NCBI RefSeq assembly: GCF_028550415.1
Contig: NZ_JAQQKX010000013.1
Location: 83,322-147,321 of the forward strand
DNA: 64,000 nucleotides
Origin: Asticcacaulis aquaticus
GTDB taxonomy: Bacteria > Pseudomonadota > Alphaproteobacteria > Caulobacterales > Caulobacteraceae
Direction: 5' to 3'
The number at the start of each line of letters is the position of its first letter. Positions within the stretch are counted from its first letter, which is position 1. The position numbers and the translations under genes are program-made. Shown here one piece after another: positions 12,436 to 55,378 of this stretch. The notes below the pieces were generated by a model that saw nothing but the letters and a program-made list of their open reading frames with translations, was not told where the DNA came from and ran no database searches.

Positions 12436-15645
<3,210 letters not shown>

Positions 15646-19756: not shown

Positions 19757-21532
19757 TTACGGCGTCACCTTGAAATATTCGAACTCCACAAAGCCGACGC
19801 GTGTCGCGGTATTCGATGGCGTACCTGTGGGCGACTGCGCGAAAACGCCGATCTGCGCGCCGACCCAGCGTCCTGGCTGCGAGGTGAAACCGGCTCCGAT
19901 CGGGGTAAAGGTCACGCCGTCGAGGCTGTAGCTGAACGTCACCGTCGCATGGGTCGAACGCAGCATGGACGGCCAGTAGAAGGGCTGGTTCGGCGGTGAA
20001 TCGACGACGGTGACCGGTTCGAGGTGCGCCCGCACCCATACCGGGCCGGTGATCTTTTCCGGTGCGGCCATGACGGTTTCCGCCCCGCCTGCGCTGGCTT
20101 TCAGCCGCGTCACCTGCACCAGTCGGACACCCTCGGCGGTATTTTCCAGTCCGACCCAGCCGTAATTATAGCCCAGCACCACCAGTCCGGCGCGCTCACC
20201 AGCCAGATTCGGCATCAGGCTCAGCTTCGTCGTGGCGCTGAACGTCATGCCGGGGAGTTTCTGCGTCAGCAAATTCCCCGCTTCCCACAGATTGACCGAG
20301 GACGAGATCGACTTCAGGCGCAACTTGCCTTTAATGCTGGCATCGGCCCAGTCCTCGTTGGGATTGGCGTTCCATTGCCACCCAAGGTGATAGCCGTTGC
20401 GGAAATCGTCATCGACGACCGGCACGGCCACGGGCTGGGCTGGCACATTCGGCTTTTTGTGTCGCCAGACGGGCTGTCCATAGACCTGTCCCTTCTGGCG
20501 TTCGCCGATGATCGGCCAGCCATCCTTGCCCCAGGTCATCGGTTGCAGCATGACGCGGCGGCCATAGGAATCGGCGTCCTGAAAATGCAGGAACCAATCC
20601 TCGCCCGGTTTTCCGTTTTTGGGGGCTGTATCGACCCACGCGCCCTGATGCGGGCCGTTCATCTCCGTCGTCCCCTGATCGATAACGCTGCGGCCTTCAT
20701 AGGGGCCGTCGATGGTCTTTGCGCGGAAAACGCCCTGCCAGCCGCCCTTGACCGAACCCGACGGCACGAAGACGTAATAATAGCCGGCGCGCTTATAGAG
20801 CTTCGGCCCTTCGGTGGTGAACCAGGACACCAGCCCCTGCGAGGTCTGCACCTTGGGCAATTTGTCGCCTTCGATGATATATTTGCCCGAATCCAGCGTC
20901 TTCGTGCCGTCCGGGCTCATCTTTTTAAGGGTGATGATGTTCTTGATCCCGGCGCGCGACCCCGCGAAGCCGTGCACCAGATAAGCTTGCCCGTCCTCAT
21001 CCCAGAACGGCGCCGGATCGATCGCGCCTTTGGTATTGTCCACCAGCACCGGTTTGGTCCACGGCCCTTTTGGATCCGTGGCGGTGACGAGAAAAATCCC
21101 GAAATCCGGATCGGGATAATAGATCATGAACTTGCCGTCGTGGTGACGGATCGCCGGAGCCCACACCCCGCCGCCGCGCCGGGGCGTCGTATGATGACCG
21201 TCGGGTACATTGCGTTCCAGCGCGTAACCGATCAGGGTCCAGTTCACGAGGTCCTTCGAATGCAGGATCGGTAGGCCCGGTATGTTGGTGAAACTCGACG
21301 CCGTCAGGTAATAATCGTCACCGACCCGGATTGCGTCAGGGTCGGAATAGTCACCCTGAAGCACCGGATTGATATAGGTGCCGTCGCCCTGATCCGGCAC
21401 CCAGATGCCGGCGGGCATCGATGATTCGGGAGACTTCTGGCTGACTTTCGGGGCTTCGGCGGCGAAGGCGGCGACCGGCAAAACCACGCTCGCCGCCAGG
21501 GCGAACGACCGCATCGTCATCATAATGGGCAT
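19757..21532 (-). CDS. GH43 family beta-xylosidase/arabinofuranosidase, secreted
   Basis: A 591-residue enzyme for xylan or arabinan side chains. A signal peptide ends near residue 25. The five-bladed propeller carries the GH43 triad: base D64 in GDYSDPDAIR, pKa-modulating D172 in GAIDPAPFWDEDG and acid E241 in FTTEGPKLYK. The C-terminal half (about 380-590) is a beta-sandwich typical of the xylosidase subfamilies of GH43. The start is behind GAGAGA. It is transcribed away from the HTH-TPR gene, with a 193-base gap in between that holds GTTAGCGGTAAC, a LacI-family-like half palindrome. Confidence 0.92.
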   Translation of the reverse strand: MPIMMTMRSFALAASVVLPVAAFAAEAPKVSQKSPESSMPAGIWVPDQGDGTYINPVLQGDYSDPDAIRVGDDYYLTASSFTNIPGLPILHSKDLVNWTLIGYALERNVPDGHHTTPRRGGGVWAPAIRHHDGKFMIYYPDPDFGIFLVTATDPKGPWTKPVLVDNTKGAIDPAPFWDEDGQAYLVHGFAGSRAGIKNIITLKKMSPDGTKTLDSGKYIIEGDKLPKVQTSQGLVSWFTTEGPKLYKRAGYYYVFVPSGSVKGGWQGVFRAKTIDGPYEGRSVIDQGTTEMNGPHQGAWVDTAPKNGKPGEDWFLHFQDADSYGRRVMLQPMTWGKDGWPIIGERQKGQVYGQPVWRHKKPNVPAQPVAVPVVDDDFRNGYHLGWQWNANPNEDWADASIKGKLRLKSISSSVNLWEAGNLLTQKLPGMTFSATTKLSLMPNLAGERAGLVVLGYNYGWVGLENTAEGVRLVQVTRLKASAGGAETVMAAPEKITGPVWVRAHLEPVTVVDSPPNQPFYWPSMLRSTHATVTFSYSLDGVTFTPIGAGFTSQPGRWVGAQIGVFAQSPTGTPSNTATRVGFVEFEYFKVTP

Positions 21533-21725
21533 CAGGCATTTCTCTCTGTTAATGGGCGTAGGCGCCCTGTCCTTGTTAAGCGCACTTAAGCAACTGTTAG
21601 CGGTAACGTCAATTCCACACCTTGCCCCGGTGTGGTTTGCGAGCGAAGAACGATGTCATTCGGCATTGTCATACCTTATCCGCCCTTCTATACTCGCGGC
21701 AGGAGAATTCGGGGGATCAAGCGGC

Positions 21726-23075
21726 GTGGGCTCATCCAATCGCATCGACGGCTGGAAAGCGATCGGCGGCCATTTCGGGCGCGACCGGACGACCGTCATG
21801 CGCTGGGCGCAGCAGCGTGGTCTGCCGGTGCGACGCCTGCCGGGCGGCAAGACCGGCACCGTCTATGCCCTCAGAGACGAACTGGATCGCTGGGCGGCCA
21901 ATCAGACTAATCTGAACGAGGAGGTGCCAGACGGCCTGACGGAGACTCAGGCTCTCCCGGTCGCCACGCCGGAACGATCGTTCTGGGCGCGAAACTGGCG
22001 GCGTCTGGCCGTCGTGGGGCTGATGGGACTGGCCATCGCCTTTGCGGCAGGCACGATCCTCATGTCGCGTGTCGCCTCGCCCGCCCAAACCCCGGCCCTG
22101 CCGTCCGATCCGGCGGTCAGCGCCCTCTATCTCGAAGCGCGCGACGCCTGGGCCCAGCGTACGCCGGCCTCGCTCACACGGGCCATCAGCCTGCTCACCA
22201 CCATTACCCGGAAAGACCCGGGCTTCGCCCCCGCCTGGGCCGGGCTGGCCGACGCCTATCTGCTGTCGCGTGAATTCGGCATCACCCCCGATGCCGAAGC
22301 GTTCCCAAAGGCGAAAGCCGCCGCCGAAACCGCCCTGCAGCGCAACCCGGAACTGGGGGCGGCCCACCGGGCGCTGGGCTTTATCGCCTACTGGTGGCAG
22401 GACGATCCGCAAACGGCGGGCCGGTTCTTCCGTAAGGCTCTGACGCTGTCGCCGCGCGATGCTCAGACGCATTTCTGGTACGGCAATATCCTTTCGGACA
22501 ACGGACAGCACGTGGCCGGATTGCGCGAACTGAACACGGCCCGCCTGATCGAGCCGGGTTCGGTCGCCATTCAGACCGATCTCGCCTGGGCGCAGTGGTC
22601 GGCGGGCGAAGACGCCGAAGCGCGGCAGGCGCTCAGCCAGCTCATGCAGGTTCGGGCCGACTTTCCCGTCGTCCACGACTGTACCAGCCTGATCAAGCTG
22701 GCCGATGGCGACTATGTCGGTTACGTGCAGGATCTGGGCGAATTCGCCCGCCTGCGCGGCGATCCTGAACTGATCCGCCATGCCACGGCCCTGCGCGACG
22801 ATCTGAAAACCGGTGCGGACGCCGTTCAGCGTCGCCTGATGCAATATGCGCTGGCTGAGATCGCCGCCAAGACCCGCCGCACGCATGTGTGGCCGGTATT
22901 TCTCGCCTCGGTCGCCCAGAACCGTCAGCAGGTGGTCAATCTGCTCAAAGCCGCCGAGACGCGCGGCGAAAAATGGGGCGAGGCCGGTCTTACCGCCCGC
23001 ATCGCCCGTCTGTGGATGGACGACGGCGAAATCGCCGCCAGCCTGCGTCGTCTGAAAGCCGCACCGGTCGAATAG
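21726..23075 (+). CDS. HTH DNA-binding and TPR protein, membrane-anchored
   Basis: A 449-residue protein of a type common in Caulobacterales and Acidobacteria. The N-terminal 60 residues form a winged HTH resembling excisionase domains (IDGWKAIGGHFGRDRTTVMRWAQQRGLPV). One transmembrane helix lies near residues 90-110. TPR-like helical repeats of about 34 residues fill the rest. The GTG at 21726 is preferred because the conserved SSNRIDGWKAIG block begins right after it and GGGGGA precedes it; an upstream extension crosses into the GH43 gene. It could regulate the divergent GH43 gene or the downstream locus. I infer this from position only. Confidence 0.75.
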   Translation: MGSSNRIDGWKAIGGHFGRDRTTVMRWAQQRGLPVRRLPGGKTGTVYALRDELDRWAANQTNLNEEVPDGLTETQALPVATPERSFWARNWRRLAVVGLMGLAIAFAAGTILMSRVASPAQTPALPSDPAVSALYLEARDAWAQRTPASLTRAISLLTTITRKDPGFAPAWAGLADAYLLSREFGITPDAEAFPKAKAAAETALQRNPELGAAHRALGFIAYWWQDDPQTAGRFFRKALTLSPRDAQTHFWYGNILSDNGQHVAGLRELNTARLIEPGSVAIQTDLAWAQWSAGEDAEARQALSQLMQVRADFPVVHDCTSLIKLADGDYVGYVQDLGEFARLRGDPELIRHATALRDDLKTGADAVQRRLMQYALAEIAAKTRRTHVWPVFLASVAQNRQQVVNLLKAAETRGEKWGEAGLTARIARLWMDDGEIAASLRRLKAAPVE

Positions 23076-23233: not shown

Positions 23234-23896
23234 ATGGTGCACTTTACCCGCAGATCGGCGTTCAGCCTCCCCGTCATGGGTGTGGTCGGCGGTATGGCGG
23301 TTCTGTTGTGGCCGCGCGGTGGGCACGCCGCCCCCACCTTTGCACCGCGACCGGCCCTGAAGGGCCTGATGGCCGCCCGGCAAAGCGCCATCTGTCACGT
23401 GGCCGACTACGGCGGCAGCCAGACCCTGATCCTGCTGATTAATGGTATCCCGGTCGAAGCTCATCTCCGCCGCAACGGCCTCTATCAGCCCAAGGACCAG
23501 CGCCGGTCGCGCGCGGCCAAACCGGTCACCCCGGTCGATTTCAACCGCCTGATCGCCGCGGCGGGCGGGCTGGACAAGGGCGTCAACGGCACCCCCAGAG
23601 CGGCCGAATTTTTCGCGCTTTATAACAGCCTGATGCCCGCCGTCACGGCACCGGACCCCTGCCCGGCCGATTTCGCCCACCGGACCACCAGCGAGCGCGC
23701 CACGATCCGTCAGGGACTGGGGACGGCGGCATATACGCGCTACGCCCCCTGCTTCACCCTCGATGGCGACGCGGTGCGCCTCGATTTCAGCGACGATCCC
23801 TTTTTCGATACCTGGACGTTCGAACGCGACGCCCAGGGGCATTTTTACGGCCTGAGCGCACCCGGCGTGCGGGCCATATGGTCATTGGAGGCCTGA
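23234..23896 (+). CDS. Uncharacterised exported protein at the secretin locus
   Basis: A 220-residue protein with an N-terminal signal (basic TRRSAF, a hydrophobic core and GGHAA, ending near residue 33). I do not recognise a family. It has three cysteines (in SAICHVADYG, DPCPADF and YAPCFTL) and an aromatic C-terminus. Its stop is only five bases before the secretin start and both are exported, so the two are likely one operon. A possible role is accessory protein to the secretin, but nothing in the sequence proves it. The ATG at 23234 follows a GGGG-containing stretch. Confidence 0.65.
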   Translation: MVHFTRRSAFSLPVMGVVGGMAVLLWPRGGHAAPTFAPRPALKGLMAARQSAICHVADYGGSQTLILLINGIPVEAHLRRNGLYQPKDQRRSRAAKPVTPVDFNRLIAAAGGLDKGVNGTPRAAEFFALYNSLMPAVTAPDPCPADFAHRTTSERATIRQGLGTAAYTRYAPCFTLDGDAVRLDFSDDPFFDTWTFERDAQGHFYGLSAPGVRAIWSLEA

Positions 23897-23901
23897 ACGC
23901 T

Positions 23902-25530
23902 ATGACGCCCAAACCCCTGATCCGCGCCACCCTGATGGCCGCTCTGCTGTGCAGCGTATCCGCCTGCGCGACCGCCCCTTCCGGCCCGTCGGCGACCGCC
24001 GATATACCCCGCGCCATCGGTATCGATCAGGCGGCGCTGGCCCTGCAAACCGGCGATCATGCCACGGCGCTCAAAGGGTTCGGCGACGCGGCGGCGCGCG
24101 ATCCGTCCGACGCCGCGCGGCAGACCCTGCTGGGTATGACCTATCAGGCAGCGGCACAGGGCGACCCGGAACAGCTCGATCTGGCGCTGGCCGGTTACGA
24201 TCTGGCGCTGCGCAGCGGTCAGGATGCCTTCTGGGCCGCGGCGCTGGCGGGCAAGGCGGCGTTCGACCGCGGCCGCTACGCCCAGGCCCAGAGCTACTAT
24301 GCGCGGGCCGTCATGATGCGTCCCGACGATGCGCGTGCCCTGCTGGGGCTGGCGATGAGCGCCTATATGGCGGGCGATCCGCAACTGGCCGCGCTGAGTG
24401 CCGAACGCGCTGCCGCCCTAAGTAGCGATCCGGCCCTGATGAGCGGGGCGCTGAAAATCGGCGCCCTGTCCTATGCCGCCACAGGCCGCCGCGATCAGGC
24501 CGCCGCCCGATACCAGAAGCTTATCCTTGTCGCGCCGGAACAGGCCGCGCCGGTCAAGGCGCGCATGGAGGAACTGACCCGGACCGAGGCCACCGACCCG
24601 GTACCGGAGGCCGCGACGCGCGATCCCGGCACGCCTGATCAGGTCTCGGTCGATGTCGCGATCATCCTGTCGCAGAACGCCCAGCGCGACTCCATAGGCC
24701 TGAACCTGCTCGACGGCCTGCAAATTCAGTATGGCCGTCAGGACCAGCAGACCCATGCCGGCAGCGATACCGGTGTATCACGCACCATCACCGATACTAT
24801 CACCCTGCCCCAACTGACCTATAACCTCAATCTCTTCAACCGGTTCGGTCAATATTATCAGGTGGTTGCCCGCCCCATGCTCACCGCCTATCGCGGCGAG
24901 CCCTCGGACTTTTTCGTCGGCCGTTCGACCAAGGTCGCCGTCAAGGGCGTCAACTTCTCGCAACTGGAAAACATCGACATCGGCACCCAGGTCAAGGTGA
25001 CGCCGCTGGAGATCACCGCCGAGGGCACGCGTCTGAAGATCGAGGTCACCCGTTCCTTCCTGTCCGGCGAACCGGCGGGGAATTTCAATGAGGCGCTGAA
25101 TACCTGGCGGCAGACGGTCTCGACCACCGTCGAGGTAAAGTTCGGCACAACGCTGATCCTGTCCGGCCTGTCCGAAAGCGTTCGCGACTCCTCGGTCACC
25201 AAAACCCCTCTGCTGGGCGATGCGCCGGTCATCGGTTCTGCCTTCAATCGCCGGGTGACCAATGAACGCCGCGATGCGGTGCTGGTCCTTGTCACGCCCG
25301 CCCCGGCTCAGGCCATCCAAAGCACACCGTGGGCGCGTCCGGCCGATGTGGAGCGCCTGATCGGCCTGTGGGGCACGACGGTCGCACCGGGTTCGGATCT
25401 GGGCGCGATCACGGGAAACCTGTCGCGCTCGCGCCTGTTCACCCGCGCCCGCAAGACCGATGCCCAATTGTCGTGGCCCAGCCTGCCGCACGATCAGGGT
25501 GAAATCCTCAAAGACCTTATCCTGCCGTAA
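23902..25530 (+). CDS. TPR-secretin fusion lipoprotein (type II/III secretin family)
   Basis: A 542-residue outer-membrane secretin-like protein. A signal peptide ends at a lipobox (SVSAC, C22). Residues about 45-235 are TPR-like helical repeats instead of the usual N0/N1 ring domains. The secretin region (about 250-475) has VNFSQLENIDIGTQVKVTPLEI and the signature around KTPLLGDAPVIGSAFNRR, followed by RRDAVLVLVTPA. Secretins form large outer-membrane pores for secretion or pili. No GspE, GspF, pseudopilin or cpa gene is near, so this may be an orphan secretin dedicated to the three exported proteins encoded just downstream. The ATG at 23902 is preferred to one at 23878. Confidence 0.8.
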   Translation: MTPKPLIRATLMAALLCSVSACATAPSGPSATADIPRAIGIDQAALALQTGDHATALKGFGDAAARDPSDAARQTLLGMTYQAAAQGDPEQLDLALAGYDLALRSGQDAFWAAALAGKAAFDRGRYAQAQSYYARAVMMRPDDARALLGLAMSAYMAGDPQLAALSAERAAALSSDPALMSGALKIGALSYAATGRRDQAAARYQKLILVAPEQAAPVKARMEELTRTEATDPVPEAATRDPGTPDQVSVDVAIILSQNAQRDSIGLNLLDGLQIQYGRQDQQTHAGSDTGVSRTITDTITLPQLTYNLNLFNRFGQYYQVVARPMLTAYRGEPSDFFVGRSTKVAVKGVNFSQLENIDIGTQVKVTPLEITAEGTRLKIEVTRSFLSGEPAGNFNEALNTWRQTVSTTVEVKFGTTLILSGLSESVRDSSVTKTPLLGDAPVIGSAFNRRVTNERRDAVLVLVTPAPAQAIQSTPWARPADVERLIGLWGTTVAPGSDLGAITGNLSRSRLFTRARKTDAQLSWPSLPHDQGEILKDLILP

Positions 25531-25559: not shown

Positions 25560-26615
25560 ATGACCCGCGCCTTCGTTTCACGTACCGCCGCCGCCCTGTG
25601 CCTGATCGCCGCCCCCCTTGCCGCCTCAGCGCAGACGCCACAGCCGCGCTCCGACCTGACGGTCGCTGCCGACATCAAACCCATGATCAGCGCCCAGCAG
25701 ATGACCCGACTCAAAGCGGTCAGCAGCCGCTACGATCAGCGGATCGCCACCGCTTTCAAGGGCAAAGAGACATTGCGTCAGACGATGGAGACCGATCTGC
25801 GTGCCATCGAGGCCGAGGCGGCCCCTGCGCGGCGCAAGGCCCTGATCCAGACCTATCGCAGTAAGCACGGCGCCGCTTACAAGCAGGTTCTCCGCGAAGG
25901 CGGCGTTGATCTTAAGGTCGTCTCCGGTGAATTCAGCGCCATCGTCCCGGAACTGGACTTTGAGGTCGTCGACGGGCTGAACCTGAGGGCCGTCCCGCGC
26001 ACCGACGCGACCCGCAAAAAGGCCGCTGCCAAAACCTCGGCACCGCGCCCGACGACTCAGGTCAAGGCTCTGATGGGGGCCGACTATAGCATCGACAAGG
26101 ATCTGAGTTGCGGAGCGATCGCCGGAAGCTCCGTCACCACCTCCGGCGGCTATATGCGCAATTCGACCTGGGCAGCCGAAGCGGGCGGTTGCGAAAACGA
26201 AGGCACGTTCCGCCACCGCTTCACCACCACGGCGAACCAAACGGTACGGGTGGAGATGACCGCCGATCTGGAGACCGAAGCCTATGCGGTCGCCATCCTT
26301 GCCGAAGCCATTGGACGCGCCCACGCTTCGCTCGACGTAACCTCGGCAAGCGGTCGAAGCCTGAGTGAAATCGATGGTTACGATTACGAAGTGCCGTCGG
26401 TGAATTGCTACGCCTTCGCGATGTTCATGTGGGCGACATCGGAAACCTGTGAACGGCAGAACGTCGTCCTTTCGGTCGAGCTGAAATCACCCGGCACCTA
26501 TGTGGTGCGTGGTCACACGGTGACCCGCACCATCGCCGGAGGTGTCGTCACAGGCACCACGGCGGAGGCCCGCATCAAGCAACTGCGCACCACCATCACC
26601 ACGGAACCGAAATAA
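25560..26615 (+). CDS. Exported protein of unknown function, paralogue A
   Basis: A 351-residue protein with a clear signal peptide (cleavage near residue 24, ASA-Q). The first part of the mature chain is helical and charged (MTRLKAVSSRYDQRIATAF, then an ETDLRAIEAEA stretch). A short spacer with KKAAAKTSAPRP leads to a second part with NSTWAAEAGGCENEGTF and several cysteines, likely a beta-rich domain. It is a paralogue of the gene at 27659-28639, with the same domain order. It starts 29 bases after the secretin gene, behind AGAGG, and is probably in the same operon. The function is unknown. Confidence 0.7.
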   Translation: MTRAFVSRTAAALCLIAAPLAASAQTPQPRSDLTVAADIKPMISAQQMTRLKAVSSRYDQRIATAFKGKETLRQTMETDLRAIEAEAAPARRKALIQTYRSKHGAAYKQVLREGGVDLKVVSGEFSAIVPELDFEVVDGLNLRAVPRTDATRKKAAAKTSAPRPTTQVKALMGADYSIDKDLSCGAIAGSSVTTSGGYMRNSTWAAEAGGCENEGTFRHRFTTTANQTVRVEMTADLETEAYAVAILAEAIGRAHASLDVTSASGRSLSEIDGYDYEVPSVNCYAFAMFMWATSETCERQNVVLSVELKSPGTYVVRGHTVTRTIAGGVVTGTTAEARIKQLRTTITTEPK

Positions 26616-26640
26616 TCATCCGCGCGAAAGGACATTCAGT

Positions 26641-27639
26641 ATGTTCAGATATTTAGCCCCCGCCTTTATCATGGCCGCCTGCGCCGGACAGGCTGTCGCC
26701 CTGTGTCCCGGAACTGATGTGCCCGGCGCACCGCTGCTTCCTGCCGTAACTGCAGTCGAATTCTACAATGCCGCTGTTCCGGCCAAACCGCTAAAAGCCG
26801 TCGCCACCACGGAAACCGACCGTATGCAGGTCACCGGCGGCGTAGTCGGTAAGGGCAGCCTGACCCTCAACCTGACGCTTTCATCTGAGGTTGCGGCGGG
26901 GTGCGAACTCAGCTTCAGCCTGTTCGATGCCGCCACGCCTATTAATGGCCAGCGACAGACAGCAACGGAGCAAGTGTTTCCGGCCATTAATGTCCACAGA
27001 AACTACCTCCGTGTGATGTCTAACGGCACCAACAAGGTTCAGGTGACGCTTCCGGTAGGCATACGGCTGGGTAACTCCGCGATCCACCGTCATCGCATCG
27101 GCCTGAGTTCGCTTCGGGTGAACCAGACCCCTGAAACACCGCAGACATTTGAATTTCGCAACAACCCCATCCAGATCAAAGAGATACGACGCATCAGCCC
27201 AACCGCCGCTTCCGTGCGCGATGGCGATCGCGTCGAGATGGCCGTCTATCTGCAGGAACCGCTGGATGTCGCCACCTACGAGTATGACCTTCTGCCTTCC
27301 CTGAGCAGTGAGTACCGCAGCAACAGCCTGCGCGTCGAATTCACCATAAGCCCGTCGGACGCCGCTTATCTGCTGCCGCGTGAGACACGGAGCTATGTGT
27401 ATTTCCGCCCGGAATTCGCCGACGGCAGTTCCCGCACCGGCCTGATGATCGATGTCCCCGAGGCCCCCGCGAGCAAGGAACTGAAGAAGAAGACAGAAAC
27501 ACCGCTGGCTCTGCCCGGACGACTGACTCTGCCAAAGAGCGATCAAACGCCCACGACCATCACCATCACGGCCCAGCTATCGACCTATTTTTCCGGCCCC
27601 GGTGGCCAAACCCTTACCCTGCAAATTCCCGTCAACTAA
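26641..27639 (+). CDS. Exported protein of unknown function between the two paralogues
   Basis: A 332-residue protein with a signal peptide ending near residue 20 (AVA-L). The mature chain is rich in beta-type sequence (SLTLNLTLSSEV, VQVTLPVGIRLG, TITITAQLSTYF), which suggests one or more beta-sandwich domains. There is one Cys pair near the N-terminus and no transmembrane helix. The ATG at 26641 follows AAAGGA; an upstream in-frame ATG lies inside the previous gene. It is set between two paralogous exported proteins with gaps of 25 and 19 bases, so all three are probably co-expressed with the secretin. Confidence 0.7.
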   Translation: MFRYLAPAFIMAACAGQAVALCPGTDVPGAPLLPAVTAVEFYNAAVPAKPLKAVATTETDRMQVTGGVVGKGSLTLNLTLSSEVAAGCELSFSLFDAATPINGQRQTATEQVFPAINVHRNYLRVMSNGTNKVQVTLPVGIRLGNSAIHRHRIGLSSLRVNQTPETPQTFEFRNNPIQIKEIRRISPTAASVRDGDRVEMAVYLQEPLDVATYEYDLLPSLSSEYRSNSLRVEFTISPSDAAYLLPRETRSYVYFRPEFADGSSRTGLMIDVPEAPASKELKKKTETPLALPGRLTLPKSDQTPTTITITAQLSTYFSGPGGQTLTLQIPVN

Positions 27640-27658
27640 ATCCCCGAAAGGAGCCACC

Positions 27659-28639
27659 ATGCGTACCTTACCGCTGATTGCCGCTGCCCTGTTGATCGCC
27701 ACGCCCATAGCGGCACAGGAATCCAAAACGGTTGCCAAAACGCCTGCCGCGTCTGATGATACCAAGGAACAGACCGCCAAGGTTCAGGCCGTCCTTGCCG
27801 ATTTCGATAAGAAGGTCATGGCGGGCTTCCAAGGCGAAGATAAACTGCTTGCGGCTATGCAGGCCGACCTCAAAGCCATCGAGACTCAGAAAGACCCCAA
27901 GGCCCGCGCCGCCGCCATCACCGCCTATCAGAAGAAATATGCCGACTCCTACCGCAACGCGCTGAAAAAGGGCGGAGCGGATATCGGCAGTCTGGCGTCT
28001 GTCCTGTCGCAAATTCTGGGGGGGCGCACCTTCAAGGTGGTGGATGGCACGCATCTGGTAGCCGTAACCGACAACGGTGAGACGCCGCCCGCCCCGCCGC
28101 CGGCGCCCGCCAAACAAACGATTACGCTGGGCAGCAGCGACTTTACCTTCAGCCAGTCCGGATCATGCGCCGGCATCCGCGACTCCGACAGTTCCTATGC
28201 GAACTTTCGCGTGCGAACCTATACCTGGGCCGGAGTCGCCGGGGGCTGCGAAGAAAAAGGCACGCTCAACTATATCTTCGCGGTTGTCGACGGCCTGAAC
28301 CCCACGGCACGCGTGAAGTTCGATCTGACCGCCGAAGCCAGCGCCGCGGCGGCAGGCGGTGCGGCGTGGTCGAAGGGCATCAGCAGCATGACTGTTTTCG
28401 GCGGCCCGACACCGCTTGTCCGTTCCCTCACCATCGACGTGGTCGCCGCTGTCATGTGGGCCGCCGAAGACGACGGAGAAGTGCAGAACGCCGTCATGAC
28501 CGTGACCGCCGGGCGCAACAGGGGCCTCATGATTCAGGGCCAGTCGATCAGTCGCGCCAATGCCGTCGGCCTGGCGGCCGGTACGGAATCGTCCAGCTCC
28601 GTGAAGATACAGGAAGCCTCGGTCGTGGCAAATCCCTGA
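27659..28639 (+). CDS. Exported protein of unknown function, paralogue B
   Basis: A 326-residue protein with a signal peptide ending near residue 19. It repeats the layout of the gene at 25560-26615: a helical part (ADFDKKVMAGFQGEDKLL, then a DLKAIETQ stretch), the strand motif FKVVDGTHLVAV (FEVVDGLNLRAV in paralogue A), a Pro-rich linker and a TWAGVAGGCEEKGTLNY domain (TWAAEAGGCENEGTFRH in A). The shared GGCE motif suggests a conserved structural cysteine. The start follows AAAGGAG. The gene ends four bases before the convergent Rieske gene and has no visible terminator. The function is unknown. Confidence 0.7.
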   Translation: MRTLPLIAAALLIATPIAAQESKTVAKTPAASDDTKEQTAKVQAVLADFDKKVMAGFQGEDKLLAAMQADLKAIETQKDPKARAAAITAYQKKYADSYRNALKKGGADIGSLASVLSQILGGRTFKVVDGTHLVAVTDNGETPPAPPPAPAKQTITLGSSDFTFSQSGSCAGIRDSDSSYANFRVRTYTWAGVAGGCEEKGTLNYIFAVVDGLNPTARVKFDLTAEASAAAAGGAAWSKGISSMTVFGGPTPLVRSLTIDVVAAVMWAAEDDGEVQNAVMTVTAGRNRGLMIQGQSISRANAVGLAAGTESSSSVKIQEASVVANP

Positions 28640-28643
28640 GTCT

Positions 28644-29648
28644 CTATAACCACATCTCGAACGGTCCCAGGGTTTCCGGCGTTAGTCGCTGTCCCTGATA
28701 AAGCGCCGTCAGTTTGTCGCCCAGACGGTCGGCGGGCCCTGCCTTGAAGCGCGGCCCGCCGAAGGTTTCGATATTGTCGCGCAGGTGTTTCAAGGCTTCT
28801 GCGTCCTGTTCAATGACCTTGAATAAGAACAAGCGGATCAGAACTTCGGTCAGCCACGCCGGGCCGCGTTTTTTCGGCGTCGAAAAGCGCGCGAAGGGCC
28901 GCATAACGCCCTCGGCCTCAGGCACGAACCAGATGGTGACACACAGGGTCAGTCCGGACGGGCTTTCCCAGCGCCCCTGAAAGGCCACCGGCGGATAGTA
29001 GCTGCCGGTCGAACGCGCGCGCGGCCCTTCGAGCGCCCGCGACATCCAGCCATGATCGGTGTCCTGCGCATAGACGGCCTCGAACCGGTCCTCGAAAACG
29101 TGCAGGGTCTGCTCGACGCGCTGCCGCCGCGATTTCACGCGGATATAGCCATCGTGGATGAAGTTGGTGTGGAAGGGATCGAGGACATTGTCCAGCGCAT
29201 CGTAGACCCTCGCTGCCTGTGGCCGGATCGCCCACCAGAAATGGTGATGCTCCGCCGCATCGGGCATCGGCGGCAAGGCGGTTGTGAAATCGTCCGGCCC
29301 GCTTTGCAGACGCACGAAGATGACACCGAAGGCTTCGCGCGCATCAACCGTCTCGGCGCTCAGGCGGCGCGTGTCGGGATCGACGCACCCCGGTACGTCG
29401 CGGCAGGCGCCTTCGGCGTCGAAGGCCCAGCCGTGATAGGGGCAAACCAGCCGCCCGGCCTCGACCCGACCTTCCGACAGTGGATAGTTGCGATGCGGGC
29501 AACGGTCACGGAAGGCCACGATGCCCTCGGCGGTGCGCCACAGGACAACGGGATGCCCCGCCACCACGCGCTTGAGCGGCTTACGGCGCACCTGACGGCT
29601 GAGGGCGACCGGCAGCCACGAGGTCTCGATTCCAGCAGGCAGACTCAT
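28644..29648 (-). CDS. Rieske [2Fe-2S] non-haem iron oxygenase
   Basis: A 334-residue oxygenase of the ring-hydroxylating/PaO-like superfamily. The Rieske cluster ligands are C50, H52, C69 and H72 (CPHRNYPLSEG, then CPYHGW). The mononuclear iron site has H160 and H165 in DPFHTNFIH. Related enzymes hydroxylate, demethylate or desaturate specialised metabolites and need an external electron donor, and none is encoded here. It is the last gene of the minus-strand cluster that begins with KAS III, and its start overlaps the stop of the acyltransferase-like gene (ATGA at 29645-29648). This suggests a late oxidative tailoring step. Confidence 0.88.
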   Translation of the reverse strand: MSLPAGIETSWLPVALSRQVRRKPLKRVVAGHPVVLWRTAEGIVAFRDRCPHRNYPLSEGRVEAGRLVCPYHGWAFDAEGACRDVPGCVDPDTRRLSAETVDAREAFGVIFVRLQSGPDDFTTALPPMPDAAEHHHFWWAIRPQAARVYDALDNVLDPFHTNFIHDGYIRVKSRRQRVEQTLHVFEDRFEAVYAQDTDHGWMSRALEGPRARSTGSYYPPVAFQGRWESPSGLTLCVTIWFVPEAEGVMRPFARFSTPKKRGPAWLTEVLIRLFLFKVIEQDAEALKHLRDNIETFGGPRFKAGPADRLGDKLTALYQGQRLTPETLGPFEMWL

Positions 29649-30619
29649 GCGGCACTCCTCAGGAGGTGGGGTTCGGCGCGACCCAGGACAAAGGCGAGCA
29701 GGCTATAGCCCGTCCGACGCCATAGCGGCAGGTGCGCATCGATGACGATCATATATTCGACATAGGGTTTCGCGCCGCGATGGGCCTTGAACCGCCCGGC
29801 CCCCGCCGACAAATTCAACGCCACCCCCTTCGCACAGGCGGCTTCGAAAGCCACGGTCATGATGCTGCGATAAAGGCCGTCGCCGGCCGGACGCGTCCGG
29901 TCGTAACCGACCATCGGCACGGTCAGCATATCGTCATTGCCATGCAGGGCGCAGACGGCGACAATGCCCGTTGCATCCGACAGGGTATGGATTTCCAGAC
30001 AACCCTCCGCCAGAAGCGATTGTATATATTCGAGTTCATAGTCGGGATTGAACCGGCTATAGGCGTCGATATAGAGGCTGCGATAGAGGCTCAGACAGCG
30101 CGTCAGCATGACCTCAGGCAAACCGTTGCGATGGATGTCGTGCCGCAACCCGGATTGCGCCAACCGCACCCGGTCGCGCCGGGCATCGCGGCGGTCGCAC
30201 CAGTCGCGCTTAGGGTCGCCGACGATCCACACCACGCGGAACGGCCAGCGTTTGTAAGCTTGCGCCAAGATGTCGCGATGCGAAAAGGCGTTGAGCGAAC
30301 GGATCAGCACCGCCCGGTCCGCAAAACGCACCTCTTCGGCCAGAACCGCCGTCAGACGGTCTGGGGTGTATAGCGAGGTGCTCAATAATCTGTGGTCGGG
30401 ATAGATGGCCTGGTCGATGCGAAAAAGTCGCCCCACCCTCTCGGCCAGATGGCTGATCATGACCGCCACCCACGCGGACGGCCCGTGCATCACTCGACCT
30501 ATTTCCTCGCGCGCTACGGGGCCGATGGCCGTCGTCAGCGACGTCAGCCAGCAGCGGTTCGGCGCCTCCGGCACCGCCACCGCGCCATCGAACCGGACAC
30601 GGGCATTACGCAGACCCAT
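29645..30619 (-). CDS. Acyltransferase-like (GNAT/FemAB-type) protein of the KAS III cluster
   Basis: A 324-residue protein without signal peptide or membrane helix. The second half (about 165-315) resembles a GNAT-like fold: a GIVAVCALHGNDDMLTVPMVGYDR strand pair, then a GDGLYRSIMTVAFEAACAKG helix and LNLSAGAGRFKAHRG, similar to acetyl-CoA-binding loops in FemAB-like proteins. I cannot identify catalytic residues. Its start overlaps the end of the ATP-grasp gene by 14 bases. An acyl or aminoacyl transfer step is a reasonable inference from fold and context. The exact substrate is unknown. Confidence 0.6.
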   Translation of the reverse strand: MGLRNARVRFDGAVAVPEAPNRCWLTSLTTAIGPVAREEIGRVMHGPSAWVAVMISHLAERVGRLFRIDQAIYPDHRLLSTSLYTPDRLTAVLAEEVRFADRAVLIRSLNAFSHRDILAQAYKRWPFRVVWIVGDPKRDWCDRRDARRDRVRLAQSGLRHDIHRNGLPEVMLTRCLSLYRSLYIDAYSRFNPDYELEYIQSLLAEGCLEIHTLSDATGIVAVCALHGNDDMLTVPMVGYDRTRPAGDGLYRSIMTVAFEAACAKGVALNLSAGAGRFKAHRGAKPYVEYMIVIDAHLPLWRRTGYSLLAFVLGRAEPHLLRSAA

Positions 30620-31724
30620 AGCGGCCTCCGTTATATTCGATGTCGGCGGTCATCCCGGCGGCCAGGCTCTGCCCTTGTCTCACGGCACGCCAGCCGTAAC
30701 CGAGGGTGTCGCGCAAAGCCGCGATGCTCAGTCCGGCAAGGACATCCCGGCCCCGCGCCCGATCGTCCCGCCATGGCGTCAGACGCCCTTCGCGCAGGGC
30801 TTTCGGCAAGCCATAGAGCCACATGGCCGGGCCGACAAAGGCAGGCGTGCCGTCCGTTCGCAGGACCGGCCCAGCTCCCATAAACGCCGCTGCCAGCCCC
30901 GCCGGATCGTGGGCCAGCAGGTGCAGGCCGGACGTGGCGCGCGGGTTGCATTCCAGCAGCCACAACCGTCCGTCGGCGTCCTGCCGCAGGTCGCAGGCTA
31001 CCTGCCCGGTGAGGCCCAGCCCTCCGATCAGGGTCCGGGCCACATCTTCGAGCCTTCCCGACAGGACCGGCTCGACCGGGTCGATATAGTAGCTGGCACC
31101 GCCGCGGGTTCGCCATCCCGACCGGTAGGCGCAAAAGGCCGAGACCTCCCCCGCGTGGGCCAGAGCATAGAAACTCAGGTCTTCGCCATCGATACAGGCC
31201 TGCATCAGCCAGGGATTGGCCGGGTCATGACGCAGCGATTCAAGGCGGGATACGGCCGGGCGGATCAGAACCTGCGTACCGAAGCGCGAAAACTCAGGCT
31301 TGAATACGGACCGAGCGGCGGCGTGGCGCGCCCCTTCATCCGTACCGGTCAGGCGGCGCGTGGCGGGCACAGCGATCCCCAGACCTCCGGCCAGTTCGAG
31401 AGCGTCGAACTTGGAATGCAGGGCGAGCAGCCGGTCAGGCTCAGGCGCAAAGAGCGGCAGGTCCAGAGCCGACCAATGGAAAATTTCCTCGCACAGACAG
31501 ATGATTACATCCATCTTTTCGCCAATTTTCAAAGCCTCTGTCCGGAACCGCGATGCGGCGAAGACCGGCGAGGCATGCGTCTGGAACGCCTGCACCGGCA
31601 ATCGGTCGACAATCGCGCTGCGGTGAACATCGGCGGCGTGGACCTCGTGCCCCTGTCCGCTCAGGGCGCGGATCAGGTCGACCGCCACGGGGGCGCGGAC
31701 ACCGGTGACCAGAATTCGGCTCAT
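30606..31724 (-). CDS. ATP-grasp ligase
   Basis: A 372-residue enzyme of the carboxylate-amine ligase superfamily. The N-terminal pre-ATP-grasp domain starts with a Rossmann-like ILVTGVRAPVAVDLIRAL. The ATP-grasp core includes a FKPEFSRFGTQVLI segment and the Mg-binding LWLLECNPRATSGLHLL motif. Such enzymes join a carboxylate to an amine or thiol through an acyl phosphate. The ATG at 31724 is chosen because it overlaps the upstream TGA as ATGA and begins the Rossmann strand; a longer frame is rejected. In this cluster it may couple an amino acid or amine to the product of the adenylating or KAS III enzyme. Confidence 0.82.
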   Translation of the reverse strand: MSRILVTGVRAPVAVDLIRALSGQGHEVHAADVHRSAIVDRLPVQAFQTHASPVFAASRFRTEALKIGEKMDVIICLCEEIFHWSALDLPLFAPEPDRLLALHSKFDALELAGGLGIAVPATRRLTGTDEGARHAAARSVFKPEFSRFGTQVLIRPAVSRLESLRHDPANPWLMQACIDGEDLSFYALAHAGEVSAFCAYRSGWRTRGGASYYIDPVEPVLSGRLEDVARTLIGGLGLTGQVACDLRQDADGRLWLLECNPRATSGLHLLAHDPAGLAAAFMGAGPVLRTDGTPAFVGPAMWLYGLPKALREGRLTPWRDDRARGRDVLAGLSIAALRDTLGYGWRAVRQGQSLAAGMTADIEYNGGRYGSA

Positions 31725-32899
31725 GACATCCACCGAACATGCCGCCGCTTGGGGTAGCCCTGAGCCGGGTCCCACGCCGTTCGCTGCACGGGCTGTCCGA
31801 ACCTTGCCAAGGCCGCCGCCACGGCGCTGGCGTCATCATCATGGGCGCAGGCAAAGACGATACCGTTCGGCCTGCCGGTCGCCGTCCAGCCTTGATCGGA
31901 CGGTAAACCGGGCGATACCCGTGCCTCGACCTCGCCCGGAAAAACGGTCTGCGCGCCCCAGCGCCAGATATCCTGAACCCGCCCTTCGACGGGCCTGACG
32001 GCACGCAGGGCCGAACCGCAGGCACAGACGGTGTCCTGAAGGATATCGTCCAGCCGCAGGCGAATGACGGCCTGCGACCGGCGGCGCAGATCGGTGACGA
32101 CGGGGCGAAACCGCCCCTGATCACCCAGCGGCTCGGTCTCGACGATCAGGCTGTCCTCATTGAGATGCAGGGTGCCCAACCGGCACGGCGCGCCGAGAAA
32201 GCCTTCCGTCGCCTGATAGATCGGATCGGGCCGGACACCCAGCCGAGCGGCGATGCCGTCGCGTTCGACGACGTTCAGCGTCTCCGCGCCATAAAAGACC
32301 CGGCGCAGCGACGGCAGGGTGCGCAACTTCAGCAGAACTTGCGGCGGCGCGATAAGGATTTCGGGGTCGAAGGCCTCTATTTCGTCCGCGTCGCCGTTCA
32401 GCGGAAAAAAGCGCAGGTCGAACCGTTTCGACCGGTAGAGGTCGTTCGGCGCACGCAGGCACAGGGCGACCCTCCGATAGCGCATCAGTTCGATCGGCGT
32501 CAGCAGCTTGCCCAGCAACTGCCCCATATAGGCGGCGCGCTCGACCGGTGTGGTCACGAACAGGCCCCGCGTGCCACCGGACGTGCCGGTCGAAAATCCG
32601 GCCCGCAGGCCCGGCGACTGGGCGACGCCGGTTTCCGCCGCGGTGGCCAGAGCCTCGGCCTCGGTGTAGGTGACCCCCGACGCAAAGGCGTCGAACCTTG
32701 TGCGAAATGCGGCAATGTCCGTGACCTGAAAATCGGTCAGGGCGTCACCCGTAACCTCGGCATAGGCCGGCACCGCCCGCAGTTCCACGCGTTTTCGCTG
32801 CCACAGCCGCGCCTGATGACGCGCGATCGTGGCGCGCGACCAGCGGCGGCTGATCAGGGCCGTCGTATAGGCCGACAGAAAAGCCCCCGCCTCAGCCAT
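31721..32899 (-). CDS. F390-synthetase-like adenylate-forming enzyme
   Basis: A 392-residue adenylating enzyme, shorter than typical acyl-CoA ligases and close in pattern to the F390 synthetase/phenylacetate-CoA ligase group. The P-loop-like A3 motif is STGTSGGTRG at 103-112. A later YQATEGFLG matches the A5 region and IRLRLDDILQ the A7 region. A CACGS pair-cysteine motif follows, as in that group. It would activate a carboxylic acid as acyl-AMP. The gene overlaps the upstream hydrolase by eight bases and the ATP-grasp gene by four, so expression is tightly coupled. Confidence 0.8.
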   Translation of the reverse strand: MAEAGAFLSAYTTALISRRWSRATIARHQARLWQRKRVELRAVPAYAEVTGDALTDFQVTDIAAFRTRFDAFASGVTYTEAEALATAAETGVAQSPGLRAGFSTGTSGGTRGLFVTTPVERAAYMGQLLGKLLTPIELMRYRRVALCLRAPNDLYRSKRFDLRFFPLNGDADEIEAFDPEILIAPPQVLLKLRTLPSLRRVFYGAETLNVVERDGIAARLGVRPDPIYQATEGFLGAPCRLGTLHLNEDSLIVETEPLGDQGRFRPVVTDLRRRSQAVIRLRLDDILQDTVCACGSALRAVRPVEGRVQDIWRWGAQTVFPGEVEARVSPGLPSDQGWTATGRPNGIVFACAHDDDASAVAAALARFGQPVQRTAWDPAQGYPKRRHVRWMS

Positions 32900-33719
32900 G
32901 CCTCACCCACTTCCCCGCTGTACGCGCGCAATGCGACGGAATGATCTCCACCCGCCCGCGCTTCGATAGCGCGTTGAGCGCCGTCAGCGTCGCACGATAA
33001 GTCGCCGTATGCCCCAGCAGGCCCGTGGTCAGGGCAGGCGGCGGCACATTGTCTTCGACGGCGTCCAGCGACCACGCGGCATCCCCGATAAAGAACAGCC
33101 GTGCTTGGGGCACCCACAATCCCCAATGTCCCTTACAATGCCCGGGCAGTTCGACCGCGATCAGACTGCCGTCACCGCAGAGATCAACGCCGTGCGTGAA
33201 CGGCGCCAAATCGTCACCCAAAGCCTCAGGCGGCAGAACCTCGAAAAAGGTGGCGCGCCGATCTATATCCTCCGGCACGAGCGCACCGAGCAGGCCCTGC
33301 CGGACGCGCGTGAACCGACTGCCCCGTCGGGTGGCCTCCAGACCCGCCCGGGCGCAAAAAATCCGGGCCTGCGTAAATCGCGTCAGCCCCGCGACGTGGT
33401 CGCCGTGGAAATGCGAGACGACGACCGCCGCGATATCGTCCGGCGCGTAACCGTAGGTTTTCAGTTGATCTTCAAGCGGTTGTTCGGGCAGGCTCACGGG
33501 CGTGGCCAACCGGTAGAGCCGTTCGGGAAAGGGTTCGGTCGCCGTAAAAAAGCGTCGGTCATAGCCGGTATCGAACAGGATCGGCCCCCAACTTTCATGC
33601 ACGATCAGGCCCACCAGCGCCGGGAAATCGACCGGACACAAATGGCCGCCGCGACGGCTCATGATTTCCGGGTGTCGACAGGCCCCGACCTGCAAAATGT
33701 GGACCGCCGTCACGCTCAT
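32892..33719 (-). CDS. Metallo-beta-lactamase-fold hydrolase
   Basis: A 275-residue cytoplasmic protein of the MBL superfamily (lactonase/AHL-hydrolase-like branch). The metal motif is SHFHGDH (H103, H105, D107, H108), with H194 in PGHCKGH, D213 in GDAAW and H263 in PSHC, all as expected for a two-metal site. Such proteins hydrolyse lactones, thioesters or similar bonds. Placed between an SDR-type reductase and an adenylating enzyme, it could release or edit an intermediate, for example as a thioesterase. That role is inferred. Its start overlaps the reductase stop (ATGA). Confidence 0.85.
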   Translation of the reverse strand: MSVTAVHILQVGACRHPEIMSRRGGHLCPVDFPALVGLIVHESWGPILFDTGYDRRFFTATEPFPERLYRLATPVSLPEQPLEDQLKTYGYAPDDIAAVVVSHFHGDHVAGLTRFTQARIFCARAGLEATRRGSRFTRVRQGLLGALVPEDIDRRATFFEVLPPEALGDDLAPFTHGVDLCGDGSLIAVELPGHCKGHWGLWVPQARLFFIGDAAWSLDAVEDNVPPPALTTGLLGHTATYRATLTALNALSKRGRVEIIPSHCARTAGKWVRHG

Positions 33720-34690
33720 GAGGCCGCCTCGATGGCGCTTTGGAAGGCGTCATATGCCGGTTTGAACCCTAGCCGCTCGCGCGCCACGCTCAGGTCGAAC
33801 ATCTGCGAAAAGGCCAGGGTCGTCAGACCATAGACGGTCAGCGGCGGTTCCGGCTGACCGGGGAGCCGGCGGCAGACGGCTTCCATACCCGCAACTGCCA
33901 GACGTAACGGCCCGTAGGGTACGGGGACAAATTTGACCGGCAAATTGAGAGCCTGTGCAAATCGCTCGACCATCTCCCTGACCGGCAAGGCATGACCGCC
34001 AGAAATATTAACCGCTTCGCCATTCAACAGGGGCGCGCGTTGTTCGGCCAGCACCAGCGCCTGCGCCACATCACGCACATCGGTCAGTTCCATCAGGGCC
34101 TGGCCGCCTCGCAGAAGCGGAAACCGGCCCCTGCGCATCAGGCGCAGGACGCGCGGCAGCAGCACCGTATCGTCGGGGCCGACAATGGCACGGGGACGGA
34201 TCGACACGCAGGCCATATCGGCGTTGGCCGCATTGAGCACCCGCCGCTCGGCCTCGATCTTGGTGGCGGCATAGGCGTTGAGAGGGCGCGGCGTGACCGG
34301 ATCGCTTTCCCGGAGGCCGATCTGGTCTGCGGCACGCGCATAAACCGAAGGTGAGGAAACGAATACAAATCTCTGACATTTTTCAGCTTTTGCCGCGATT
34401 AACAACGCCTCGGTCGCCGCCACATTGATCGCGTGAAAGGCCGCTTTCGCGCCCCATGGGCTCGACAGAGCCGCCGCGTGGATCACGCTGTCCATGCCGT
34501 CGACCAACGCCTGAGCCGCCCCCGGCGTACACAGATCGGTGGCGACGAATTCCACGCCCGGCCCTTCGAGGCGCGCACCGCGCGTCACGTCGCGCCCCGT
34601 CGCCCGCACGCGATAGCCTTGTCGGCGCAAGACCTCGACGACCGCCAGCCCCAGCCCGCCCGTCGCCCCTGTGACCAGCACCCGCCTCAC
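33716..34690 (-). CDS. NAD(P)-dependent epimerase/dehydratase (3-beta-HSD-like, extended SDR)
   Basis: A 324-residue extended short-chain dehydrogenase. The nucleotide-binding motif GATGGLG is at 8-14, and the catalytic pair is Y140 and K144 (NAYAATK) with the serine in FVSSPSVY. The family includes beta-hydroxysteroid dehydrogenases and OleD-type reductases that reduce beta-keto acids made by thiolase-fold enzymes. Coming directly after KAS III with an ATGA overlap, it may reduce the condensation product. A steroid role is unlikely in this context. Confidence 0.82.
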   Translation of the reverse strand: MRRVLVTGATGGLGLAVVEVLRRQGYRVRATGRDVTRGARLEGPGVEFVATDLCTPGAAQALVDGMDSVIHAAALSSPWGAKAAFHAINVAATEALLIAAKAEKCQRFVFVSSPSVYARAADQIGLRESDPVTPRPLNAYAATKIEAERRVLNAANADMACVSIRPRAIVGPDDTVLLPRVLRLMRRGRFPLLRGGQALMELTDVRDVAQALVLAEQRAPLLNGEAVNISGGHALPVREMVERFAQALNLPVKFVPVPYGPLRLAVAGMEAVCRRLPGQPEPPLTVYGLTTLAFSQMFDLSVARERLGFKPAYDAFQSAIEAAS

Positions 34691-35685
34691 AGACGCAACA
34701 CCATGGCGCCGATGCTCACCCCCGCCGAGGTGCCGAGCAGCAGCGCGGTCGATCCGGGCGTCAGGCGGCCCTCGACCTGCGCCGCGTACAACGCCGACGG
34801 CAAGGAGGCGGCGATCTGGTTGCCATGGTCGGCAAAGATATCGACCACGCGTTCGGGGCGCACCTTCACCAGATGACGGATATATTCGAGGCCCGGCTGA
34901 CTGGCCTGATGGCAGACGATCGTGTCGATCGCGTCGAGCGTCAACCCGGCCTGAGCCATCACCTTATCGAGCACCACCGGCACATGCCGCCCTGCCGCCT
35001 TGAACACGGCGAACGGGTCCATCTGAAACAGCGCCGCCGCGCGCAGGGCCTCGATGCCATCCTCGATGCGCACCTTCGTGCCGCCCGCCCGCAGCACCGC
35101 CGTATCCTTGCCCGTGCTGAACGTGGCAAACACTGAACCGAGGACGGCGGGGCCTTCCGATGACGCCTCCACACAAACCGCTGCGGCCCCGTCACCGAAA
35201 ATGGCCGAGATTTCCGGACGACTGTAATCAAGCCCCGCCGAGGCGATGTCGCTGGCAAAGATGACCGCCCGACGACAGCGACCGGCGGCGATGTAGAGGC
35301 TGACCGTATCCAGTGCCTGAAGGAAGGACAGGCAGGTCATATTGATATCGAAAGCCACAATGCCGGATCGGGCCAGACCCAGCCGGTCCTGCACCAGCGG
35401 CGCCGTCCCGGGGATGGGCTGCTCCATTACACCGCACGCCCCGACCAGCAGATCGAACGCGCCGTCGGACCACCCGGCCTGCTTCAGAGCCTCACGACAG
35501 GCTTCCGCGGCCATGAACGAAGTCGTCTCATCGCGGGCGGCGATACCACGCGACCCTATGCCGAAGCGGGCCTCGGTCCAGCCCCCGGCTTCGCCGAAGC
35601 GGGCATCGAGCGCCGTGGACGGTTGGGAAACGCGCGGGCGATACCGGCCCAGCCCCGCCAATCTCACGCCAATAGGAAATGTCAT
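34687..35685 (-). CDS. Beta-ketoacyl-ACP synthase III (KAS III) family enzyme
   Basis: A 332-residue thiolase-fold condensing enzyme. The FabH-type triad is complete: C118 in DINMTCLSF, H259 in CHQAS and N289 in DHGNQ. Housekeeping FabH usually sits with plsX or acpP, but here it heads a seven-gene biosynthetic cluster, so a dedicated role, such as condensing an unusual acyl starter, is more likely. OleA- or DarB-like head-to-head condensation is another option. It is the first gene of the cluster. The upstream region holds a hairpin that may regulate it. Confidence 0.88.
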   Translation of the reverse strand: MTFPIGVRLAGLGRYRPRVSQPSTALDARFGEAGGWTEARFGIGSRGIAARDETTSFMAAEACREALKQAGWSDGAFDLLVGACGVMEQPIPGTAPLVQDRLGLARSGIVAFDINMTCLSFLQALDTVSLYIAAGRCRRAVIFASDIASAGLDYSRPEISAIFGDGAAAVCVEASSEGPAVLGSVFATFSTGKDTAVLRAGGTKVRIEDGIEALRAAALFQMDPFAVFKAAGRHVPVVLDKVMAQAGLTLDAIDTIVCHQASQPGLEYIRHLVKVRPERVVDIFADHGNQIAASLPSALYAAQVEGRLTPGSTALLLGTSAGVSIGAMVLRL

Positions 35686-55106: not shown

Positions 55107-55378
55107 GACCGGCTCCCTGTTTTGTTCAAGACTAAACCCCGACTTTCGCCTGTCAAGCACGCTAAAAATTGAGACGATAAATAAAATATCGGGACGACGG
55201 GTTTTTCCCTTACGCGCGTGAGATTGATCTGATAGCTTGAAATCAATAAAGGCGTGCCGCCATGGACACGCTCAAACAGGGTGCGAAAGGTCGGAAACGA
55301 CCTGATGAATCAGTCCATTCAAAGTGTTTTGAAATCTTCGAAGCCTTGAATAGCGCCCTTACGTCAGAGGAGAGACCG

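Follow-up and report, generated by a model that had tools for sequence, protein, structure and literature searches.

What is made by seven overlapping genes of the alphaproteobacterium Asticcacaulis aquaticus whose products are members of known enzyme families and together match no named pathway that we found? The genes form a minus-strand run of seven open reading frames (ORFs), from position 35685 to 28644, in a stretch of 64,000 nucleotides (RefSeq assembly GCF_028550415.1, contig NZ_JAQQKX010000013.1, positions 83,322 to 147,321) that was analyzed as a whole and that we call the window. All seven ORFs are present at the span first noted in an earlier reading of the window from its letters (the sequence-only reading). 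We find that four of the genes are a core that recurs across bacterial phyla and that the other three are accessory. The explanation that we prefer, and hold at about even confidence, is that the core builds an acid-bearing lipid chain to which interchangeable accessory genes add a polar head group, here an amino acid; the product would seemingly be an undescribed lipid with an amino-acid-like head group.

The overlaps at the six junctions, from gene 1 to gene 7, are 4, 4, 8, 4, 14 and 4 bases, and the run is likely a single operon. Measured on the longest ORFs the values are 4, 4, 8, 55, 14 and 4 bases, the 55 arising because the earliest GTG in frame with the fifth ORF is at 31775. In the database this protein is entered with 372 amino acids, and therefore its start lies at 31724 and its overlap with gene 4 is 4 bases. 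With that start, the short overlaps (4 to 14 bases) that the sequence-only reading had described for nearly every junction are found at all six. Scans of the operon for promoter-like, terminator-like and Rfam elements gave nothing useful.

Gene 1 (34687..35685, on the minus strand like the rest) encodes a beta-ketoacyl-acyl carrier protein synthase III (KAS III) condensing enzyme (PF08545/PF08541; NF005541 at 6.6e-95, with 318 bits where the cut-off is 402). Gene 2 (33716..34690) encodes an extended short-chain dehydrogenase/reductase (SDR) resembling the reductase OleD (PF01370 at 1e-37; the OleD model NF042422 at 4.6e-53), and gene 3 (32892..33719) a lactonase-like hydrolase of the metallo-beta-lactamase (MBL) fold (PF00753, Lactamase_B) that resembles 4-pyridoxolactonase and AttM at scores far under their cut-offs. 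The core is completed by gene 4 (31721..32899), a PaaK-like adenylating enzyme related to F390 synthetase; it has no Pfam match at 0.001, and its match to TIGR02304 (2.2e-48; 165.4 bits over residues 21-314) stays below the curated cut-off of 251.9, although it is a clear homologue. The accessory genes encode an ATP-grasp ligase-like enzyme of 372 residues (gene 5, 30606..31724; ATP-grasp_3/PRK06849-like), a protein with two Gcn5-related N-acetyltransferase (GNAT) domains, a FemX/MprF-like fold and a predicted role as aminoacyl or acyl transferase (gene 6, 29645..30619; Acetyltransf_6) and a Rieske non-haem iron oxygenase (gene 7, 28644..29648; PF00355 at 2.9e-23). These domain calls agree with the families that the sequence-only reading had named. 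The closest folds to the model of the ATP-grasp protein are PurK, PurD, biotin carboxylase, PylC and an amino-acid ligase, and those to the predicted model of gene 6 are the double-GNAT folds of Sbb17, FemX and MprF, which places the modeled fold nearest to aminoacyl-tRNA-dependent transferases. MprF and the lysyl- and alanyl-phosphatidylglycerol synthases (L-PGS and A-PGS) are transferases of this kind whose acceptor is a lipid. Ceramide synthase is not among the solved relatives listed for gene 6, an absence that carries no weight.

Whether these genes belong together was addressed by calling cluster genes, with family hidden Markov models of all seven proteins, in 51 loci: 19 genome contigs from one scan for the adenylating enzyme, 13 of 27 matching plasmid records, one Escherichia coli chromosome, 17 chosen genome regions and the window. 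The neighborhoods are conditional on the adenylating enzyme, and some rows are near-copies. The KAS III, the OleD-like SDR, the MBL protein and the adenylating enzyme stand together in 44 of the 51 loci (42 of 49 once the repeat E. coli records, L038 and L094, are removed), and this core occurs in Pseudomonadota, Bacillota and Fusobacteriota, well beyond the Caulobacterales. Leaving aside three rows in which genes are split, the core loci differ in content and order in ten distinct arrangements. The ATP-grasp gene is convergent in Rhizobium-type loci and stands second in Pontibacillus and Paenibacillus, three Asticcacaulis genomes have the GNAT and Rieske genes in convergent orientation, and the KAS III gene stands last in Fusobacterium. 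A set found again in several phyla, and with its genes reordered, is more than a chance grouping. Among the 42 loci the ATP-grasp family is present in at least 28, the Rieske family in at least 21 and the GNAT family in at least 15, counts that contig ends lower. The sequence-only reading had taken the seven genes as one unit; the loci show no fixed set of seven but the four-gene core with a varying accessory complement.

The seven loci in which the full core is absent are of several kinds: three are without the SDR and MBL genes (L017, L018 and L020), one is incomplete at a contig edge (L030), one has only the adenylating enzyme and the ATP-grasp protein (L037) and two hold a distant adenylating paralogue alone (L086 and L087). 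A match to TIGR02304 was found in 60 of 398 genomes of the phylum; 11 of these were opened besides the window's own, and the nine strongest have the core and the two weaker (94 and 84 bits) do not. The pairwise divergences of the seven families also correlate (rho 0.54-0.89, calculated leaving out L022, L026, L030, L037, L086, L087, L094, L095 and the Rieske protein of L035). Some copies are damaged or divided: in the E. coli copy L094 the KAS III and adenylating-enzyme frames are broken, the Rieske gene of L035 (Paraburkholderia) lies in two frames and the SDR gene of L079 is split in two pieces. Several adenylating enzymes of this kind are labelled 'cell division protein FtsA' in public databases, which looks like a propagated misannotation.

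Within the genus the association can be followed more closely. Across 25 genomes, the window's own included, the KAS III, MBL and adenylating-enzyme genes share one distribution, 11 genomes having all three and the remaining 14 having none of them (the lowest adenylating-enzyme score being 139 bits, with KAS III at 185 bits or more and the next match at 129, and MBL at 97 or more and the next at 44). So exact a coincidence is one of 4,457,400 possible placements if relatedness is ignored, and the true surprise is smaller. The SDR was surveyed in seven genomes of the genus only. In three of the 11 genomes (G007, G008 and G010) the operon has no SDR or MBL gene, and an adjacent SDR-MBL pair lies elsewhere in the genome, unlinked and between unrelated genes (L096 8360-10122; L097 8126-9810; L098 8101-9899). 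The relocated SDR and MBL proteins are 42-43% and 37-39% identical, respectively, to those of the window, and the relocated MBL protein of G007 is 64-65% identical to the MBL proteins of the G002, G004 and G013 clusters. No further cluster gene was found within the 18-19 kb read around the relocated pairs, and a second pair was not found in four genomes that have the pair inside the operon. Since operons without the pair are accompanied by an unlinked one and the four with it have no second, the SDR and MBL act as one module, apparently required by the pathway. The sequence-only reading had held that a failure of the genes to co-occur in other genomes would speak against one system with an unknown product; the neighborhoods (51 loci) and the co-occurrence within the genus (25 genomes) both favored one system.

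The seven proteins are probably all active enzymes, as their catalytic residues are conserved in alignments of the loci whose match scored above 200 bits. The KAS III triad C118/H259/N289, claimed as complete in the sequence-only reading, is indeed present, with the cysteine kept in 47/47 sequences and the histidine and asparagine each in 46/47, the exception being a fragment of the broken E. coli copy. The SDR residues S112/Y140/K144 are kept in 45/45, as are H103, H105, D107, H108, H194, D213 and H263 of the MBL protein, which we take to be the HxHxDH motif plus the H, D and H metal ligands. C50/H52/C69/H72 and D157/H160/H165/D282 of the Rieske protein, presumably the ligands of the 2Fe-2S cluster and of the mononuclear iron, are kept in 24/24. 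Residues S103, G105, Y228, T231, E232, D285 and K384 of the adenylating enzyme, which we assume to represent the P-loop, the YxxTE motif, the ribose-binding aspartate and the C-terminal lysine, do not vary in any of 27 relatives chosen for comparison; in a wider set of 51 that includes two distant paralogues and one broken copy they are kept in 49, 50, 49, 50, 51, 51 and 50, respectively.

Clues to the product come from what accompanies the core elsewhere. Assigned by Pfam and NCBIfam, the accessory genes of other clusters are mostly predicted to encode enzymes that act on the chains or the head groups of lipids. L072 has a fatty-acid hydroxylase like the ornithine-lipid hydroxylase OlsE, two fatty-acid desaturases and a PAP2 phosphatase; L074 has a fatty-acid hydroxylase and desaturases by Pfam, and the Burkholderia stagnalis cluster (L034) an OlsE-like hydroxylase. 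The Fusobacterium cluster is adjoined by an HpnI-like glycosyltransferase of family GT21, and L084 has a GT28-type glycosyltransferase; the OlsE and HpnI matches lie far under the curated cut-offs. Two DUF3419 genes stand within the cluster of genome G011 (L085 7076-8209 and 10530-11618), which is without the ATP-grasp family; a DUF3419 protein has no significant solved relative, and the Pfam family includes BtaA. The ATP-grasp family is likewise absent from G053 and from four genomes of family f50, which are placed with E. coli by the KAS III tree described below. Other genes near clusters are harder to place: a split acyl-ACP-phospholipid acyltransferase upstream in Novosphingobium (L040) may be unrelated, two Paracoccus plasmids (L036 and L091) have divergent sulfotransferase and TetR genes upstream of the core, and L036 has a nonribosomal peptide synthetase and a carrier protein nearby. 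The remaining flanking genes that were scanned are unrelated housekeeping genes or have no match (RNB nuclease, NUDIX, HSP90, fused RNase PH/Ham1).

The E. coli version consists of the four core genes with a PAP2 phosphatase, a sterol-desaturase-type hydroxylase and an acyl-CoA desaturase. It is sited between narI and the tRNA-Tyr/purU region, and the same genes are found in a plasmid record. The cluster is matched in 672 of 5426 complete E. coli genomes (about one in eight), 671 of which hold at least 80% of it, and carriers include Nissle 1917, ATCC 25922 and ABU 83972.

From these parts a pathway can be proposed. The KAS III would join an acyl thioester to a second substrate, either beta-ketoacyl or malonyl, in the manner of FabH, CorB and MxnB, and would not use the glutamate-dependent route of OleA and PpyS. 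The OleD-like SDR would then reduce the 3-keto group, and the MBL protein that is paired with it may release the acid from its thioester or open a lactone. The PaaK-like enzyme would turn the acid back into an adenylate, the ATP-grasp ligase and the FemX/MprF-like transferase would attach one or two amino acids, and the Rieske enzyme may hydroxylate the product. In other clusters the place of the last two steps would be taken by an OlsE-like hydroxylase with desaturases and a PAP2 phosphatase, by glycosyltransferases or by DUF3419 proteins. The recurrence of the core, the co-occurrence within the genus, the unlinked SDR-MBL pair, the correlated divergences, the conserved catalytic residues, the lipid-type accessory genes and the fold of gene 6 speak for the lipid reading; its weakest links are what the adenylating enzyme acts on and what the MBL protein does. 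The sequence-only reading had guessed at a lipid-amino-acid or an aryl-acyl metabolite: the former is still the best guess, with indirect support from the other clusters and the gene 6 fold, and only the PaaK-like family of gene 4 speaks for the latter.

The proposed head-group step resembles the aminolipid pathways (OlsBA/OlsE, MprF for lysyl- and alanyl-phosphatidylglycerol, BtaAB) in the MprF-like fold of gene 6, the OlsE-like hydroxylases of other clusters and the DUF3419 proteins of L085. It differs in that the KAS III-SDR-MBL-adenylating core would make the backbone, and no gene of the OlsB, OlsA or BtaA type is among the seven. Sphingolipid synthesis was considered for the GNAT and SDR genes, the bacterial ceramide synthase bCerS being GNAT-like. 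In that pathway (Spt, bCerS, CerR), according to PMC11334938, the chain-making enzyme works alongside a reductase and an acyl transferase, and the cluster would be alike in this. We dropped this candidate because no serine palmitoyltransferase-type gene is among the seven, the rest of the genome not having been searched. In the open-access literature we found no characterized pathway for the family or for the gene combination, in keeping with the earlier statement that the set matches no named pathway, although a description may exist elsewhere. The name 'coenzyme F390 synthetase' appears there as an entry in a table or, in PMC5501837, for an expression candidate in phenol degradation.

The best-surviving alternative, which we still judge unlikely, is an aryl-acid metabolite or one like the Pseudomonas quinolone signal (PQS), in which the PaaK-like enzyme would supply the KAS III with an activated aromatic acid as its primer and the MBL protein would act like PqsE. 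The only significant solved relatives of gene 4 are PaaK-like ligases (6siw at 7e-6), and 6siw is an aryl-acid enzyme of nataxazole synthesis. A KAS III, an MBL protein and an adenylating ligase occur together in the PQS/alkylquinolone pathway, a precedent for the MBL protein. However, the SDR, ATP-grasp, double-GNAT and Rieske proteins of the cluster have no known counterpart there, no gene for making an aromatic acid was seen among the accessory genes scanned or annotated, and the lipid desaturases, OlsE-like hydroxylase and PAP2 phosphatase of the E. coli-type clusters fit this explanation poorly.

A slightly poorer candidate is a beta-lactone or olefin pathway like OleABCD, with the KAS III as OleA, the SDR as OleD, the adenylating enzyme as the beta-lactone synthetase OleC and the MBL protein in place of OleB. 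The best NCBIfam match of the SDR is indeed OleD, and the order of condensation, reduction, adenylation and hydrolysis is shared, but the match of 180.7 bits to NF042422 is far from the cut-off of 580, and we do not call the SDR an OleD equivalog. A catalytic glutamate has been proposed in OleA and PpyS and shown by mutation in PpyS, and MxnB and CorB have V94 at its position (PMC4578411). In the cluster KAS III proteins this column, equivalent to OleA E117 and matched through V94 of CorB/MxnB in an alignment without an OleA row, holds isoleucine in 33 and leucine in 14 of 47. Gene 4 is TIGR02304-like and has no AMP-binding (PF00501) match of the OleC type, no alpha/beta hydrolase of the OleB type is among the seven, the cluster has MBL and head-group-type genes in addition, and the head-group-type genes of other clusters are left unexplained. 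Membership of the OleABCD system was rejected on the missing glutamate and the missing OleC and OleB types.

The same residues bear on an equally improbable explanation, in which a CorB/MxnB-like ketosynthase would join two chains into a secreted signal or antibiotic, such as an alpha-pyrone. CorB and MxnB, from the corallopyronin and myxopyronin pathways, are the best solved relatives of the window KAS III and likewise have a hydrophobic residue at the glutamate position. A tree of 52 KAS III rows, 44 of them from clusters (without L022, L094 and L095), puts them within the cluster family with support of 95/87 and 96/81, beside the Bacillota and Fusobacterium members. Yet their branch is long (1.41) and does not adjoin the window protein; neither OleA nor PqsD nor any further KAS III outgroup is in the tree, and long branches limit placement in it. 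By identity the FabH 4ryb is nearly as close to the window protein (32% against 34% for CorB/MxnB), the FabH of the window's own genome being at 28%. Kresovic et al. 2015 assign MxnB and CorB to the clade of FabH (PMC4578411), and both close the pyrone within polyketide synthase (PKS) pathways (PMC4578411 and PMC5724707), whereas the cluster KAS III travels with the SDR, MBL and adenylating enzyme. Pyrone closure would need no SDR, adenylating, MBL or ligase gene, and no PKS is encoded among the seven genes or ten other scanned ORFs of the window. Housekeeping fatty-acid synthesis was dropped as a role for the cluster, as the genome has a separate FabH-like gene (G000:C1:260225-261178) and all six FabH rows branch apart from the cluster family (100/100). 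That unrelated fatty-acid genes adjoin by chance in a loose group is scarcely credible, for although every part belongs to a common superfamily, the co-occurrence, the shuffled order and the relocated SDR-MBL pair oppose it.

Returning to the lipid reading, we tentatively suggest, with more doubt than conviction, that the cluster defines a new class of polar lipids with its own backbone machinery, exchangeable amino acid, sugar or aminocarboxypropyl heads and horizontal spread over at least three phyla, and that its KAS III was the source from which CorB and MxnB were recruited. Two antibiotic pathways would thereby be tied to the cluster family through the KAS III tree. Because 671 of the 5426 complete E. 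coli genomes carry the cluster, what is known of the best-studied bacterium may lack an entire lipid or metabolite.

Around the run, three tandem plus-strand genes (25560-28639), convergent with the operon, encode secreted-looking proteins without a Pfam match. Beyond them lie a secretin with tetratricopeptide (TPR) repeats (23878-25530) and an adjoining TPR protein (21405-23075). The same secreted-looking families, with a secretin gene beyond, also adjoin the cluster in Asticcacaulis sp. YBE204 (L015). Further off, the window encodes three glycoside hydrolases, two of family GH2 (one beta-galactosidase-like) and one of GH88 (12436-15606, 43081-44988 and 55262-57613).

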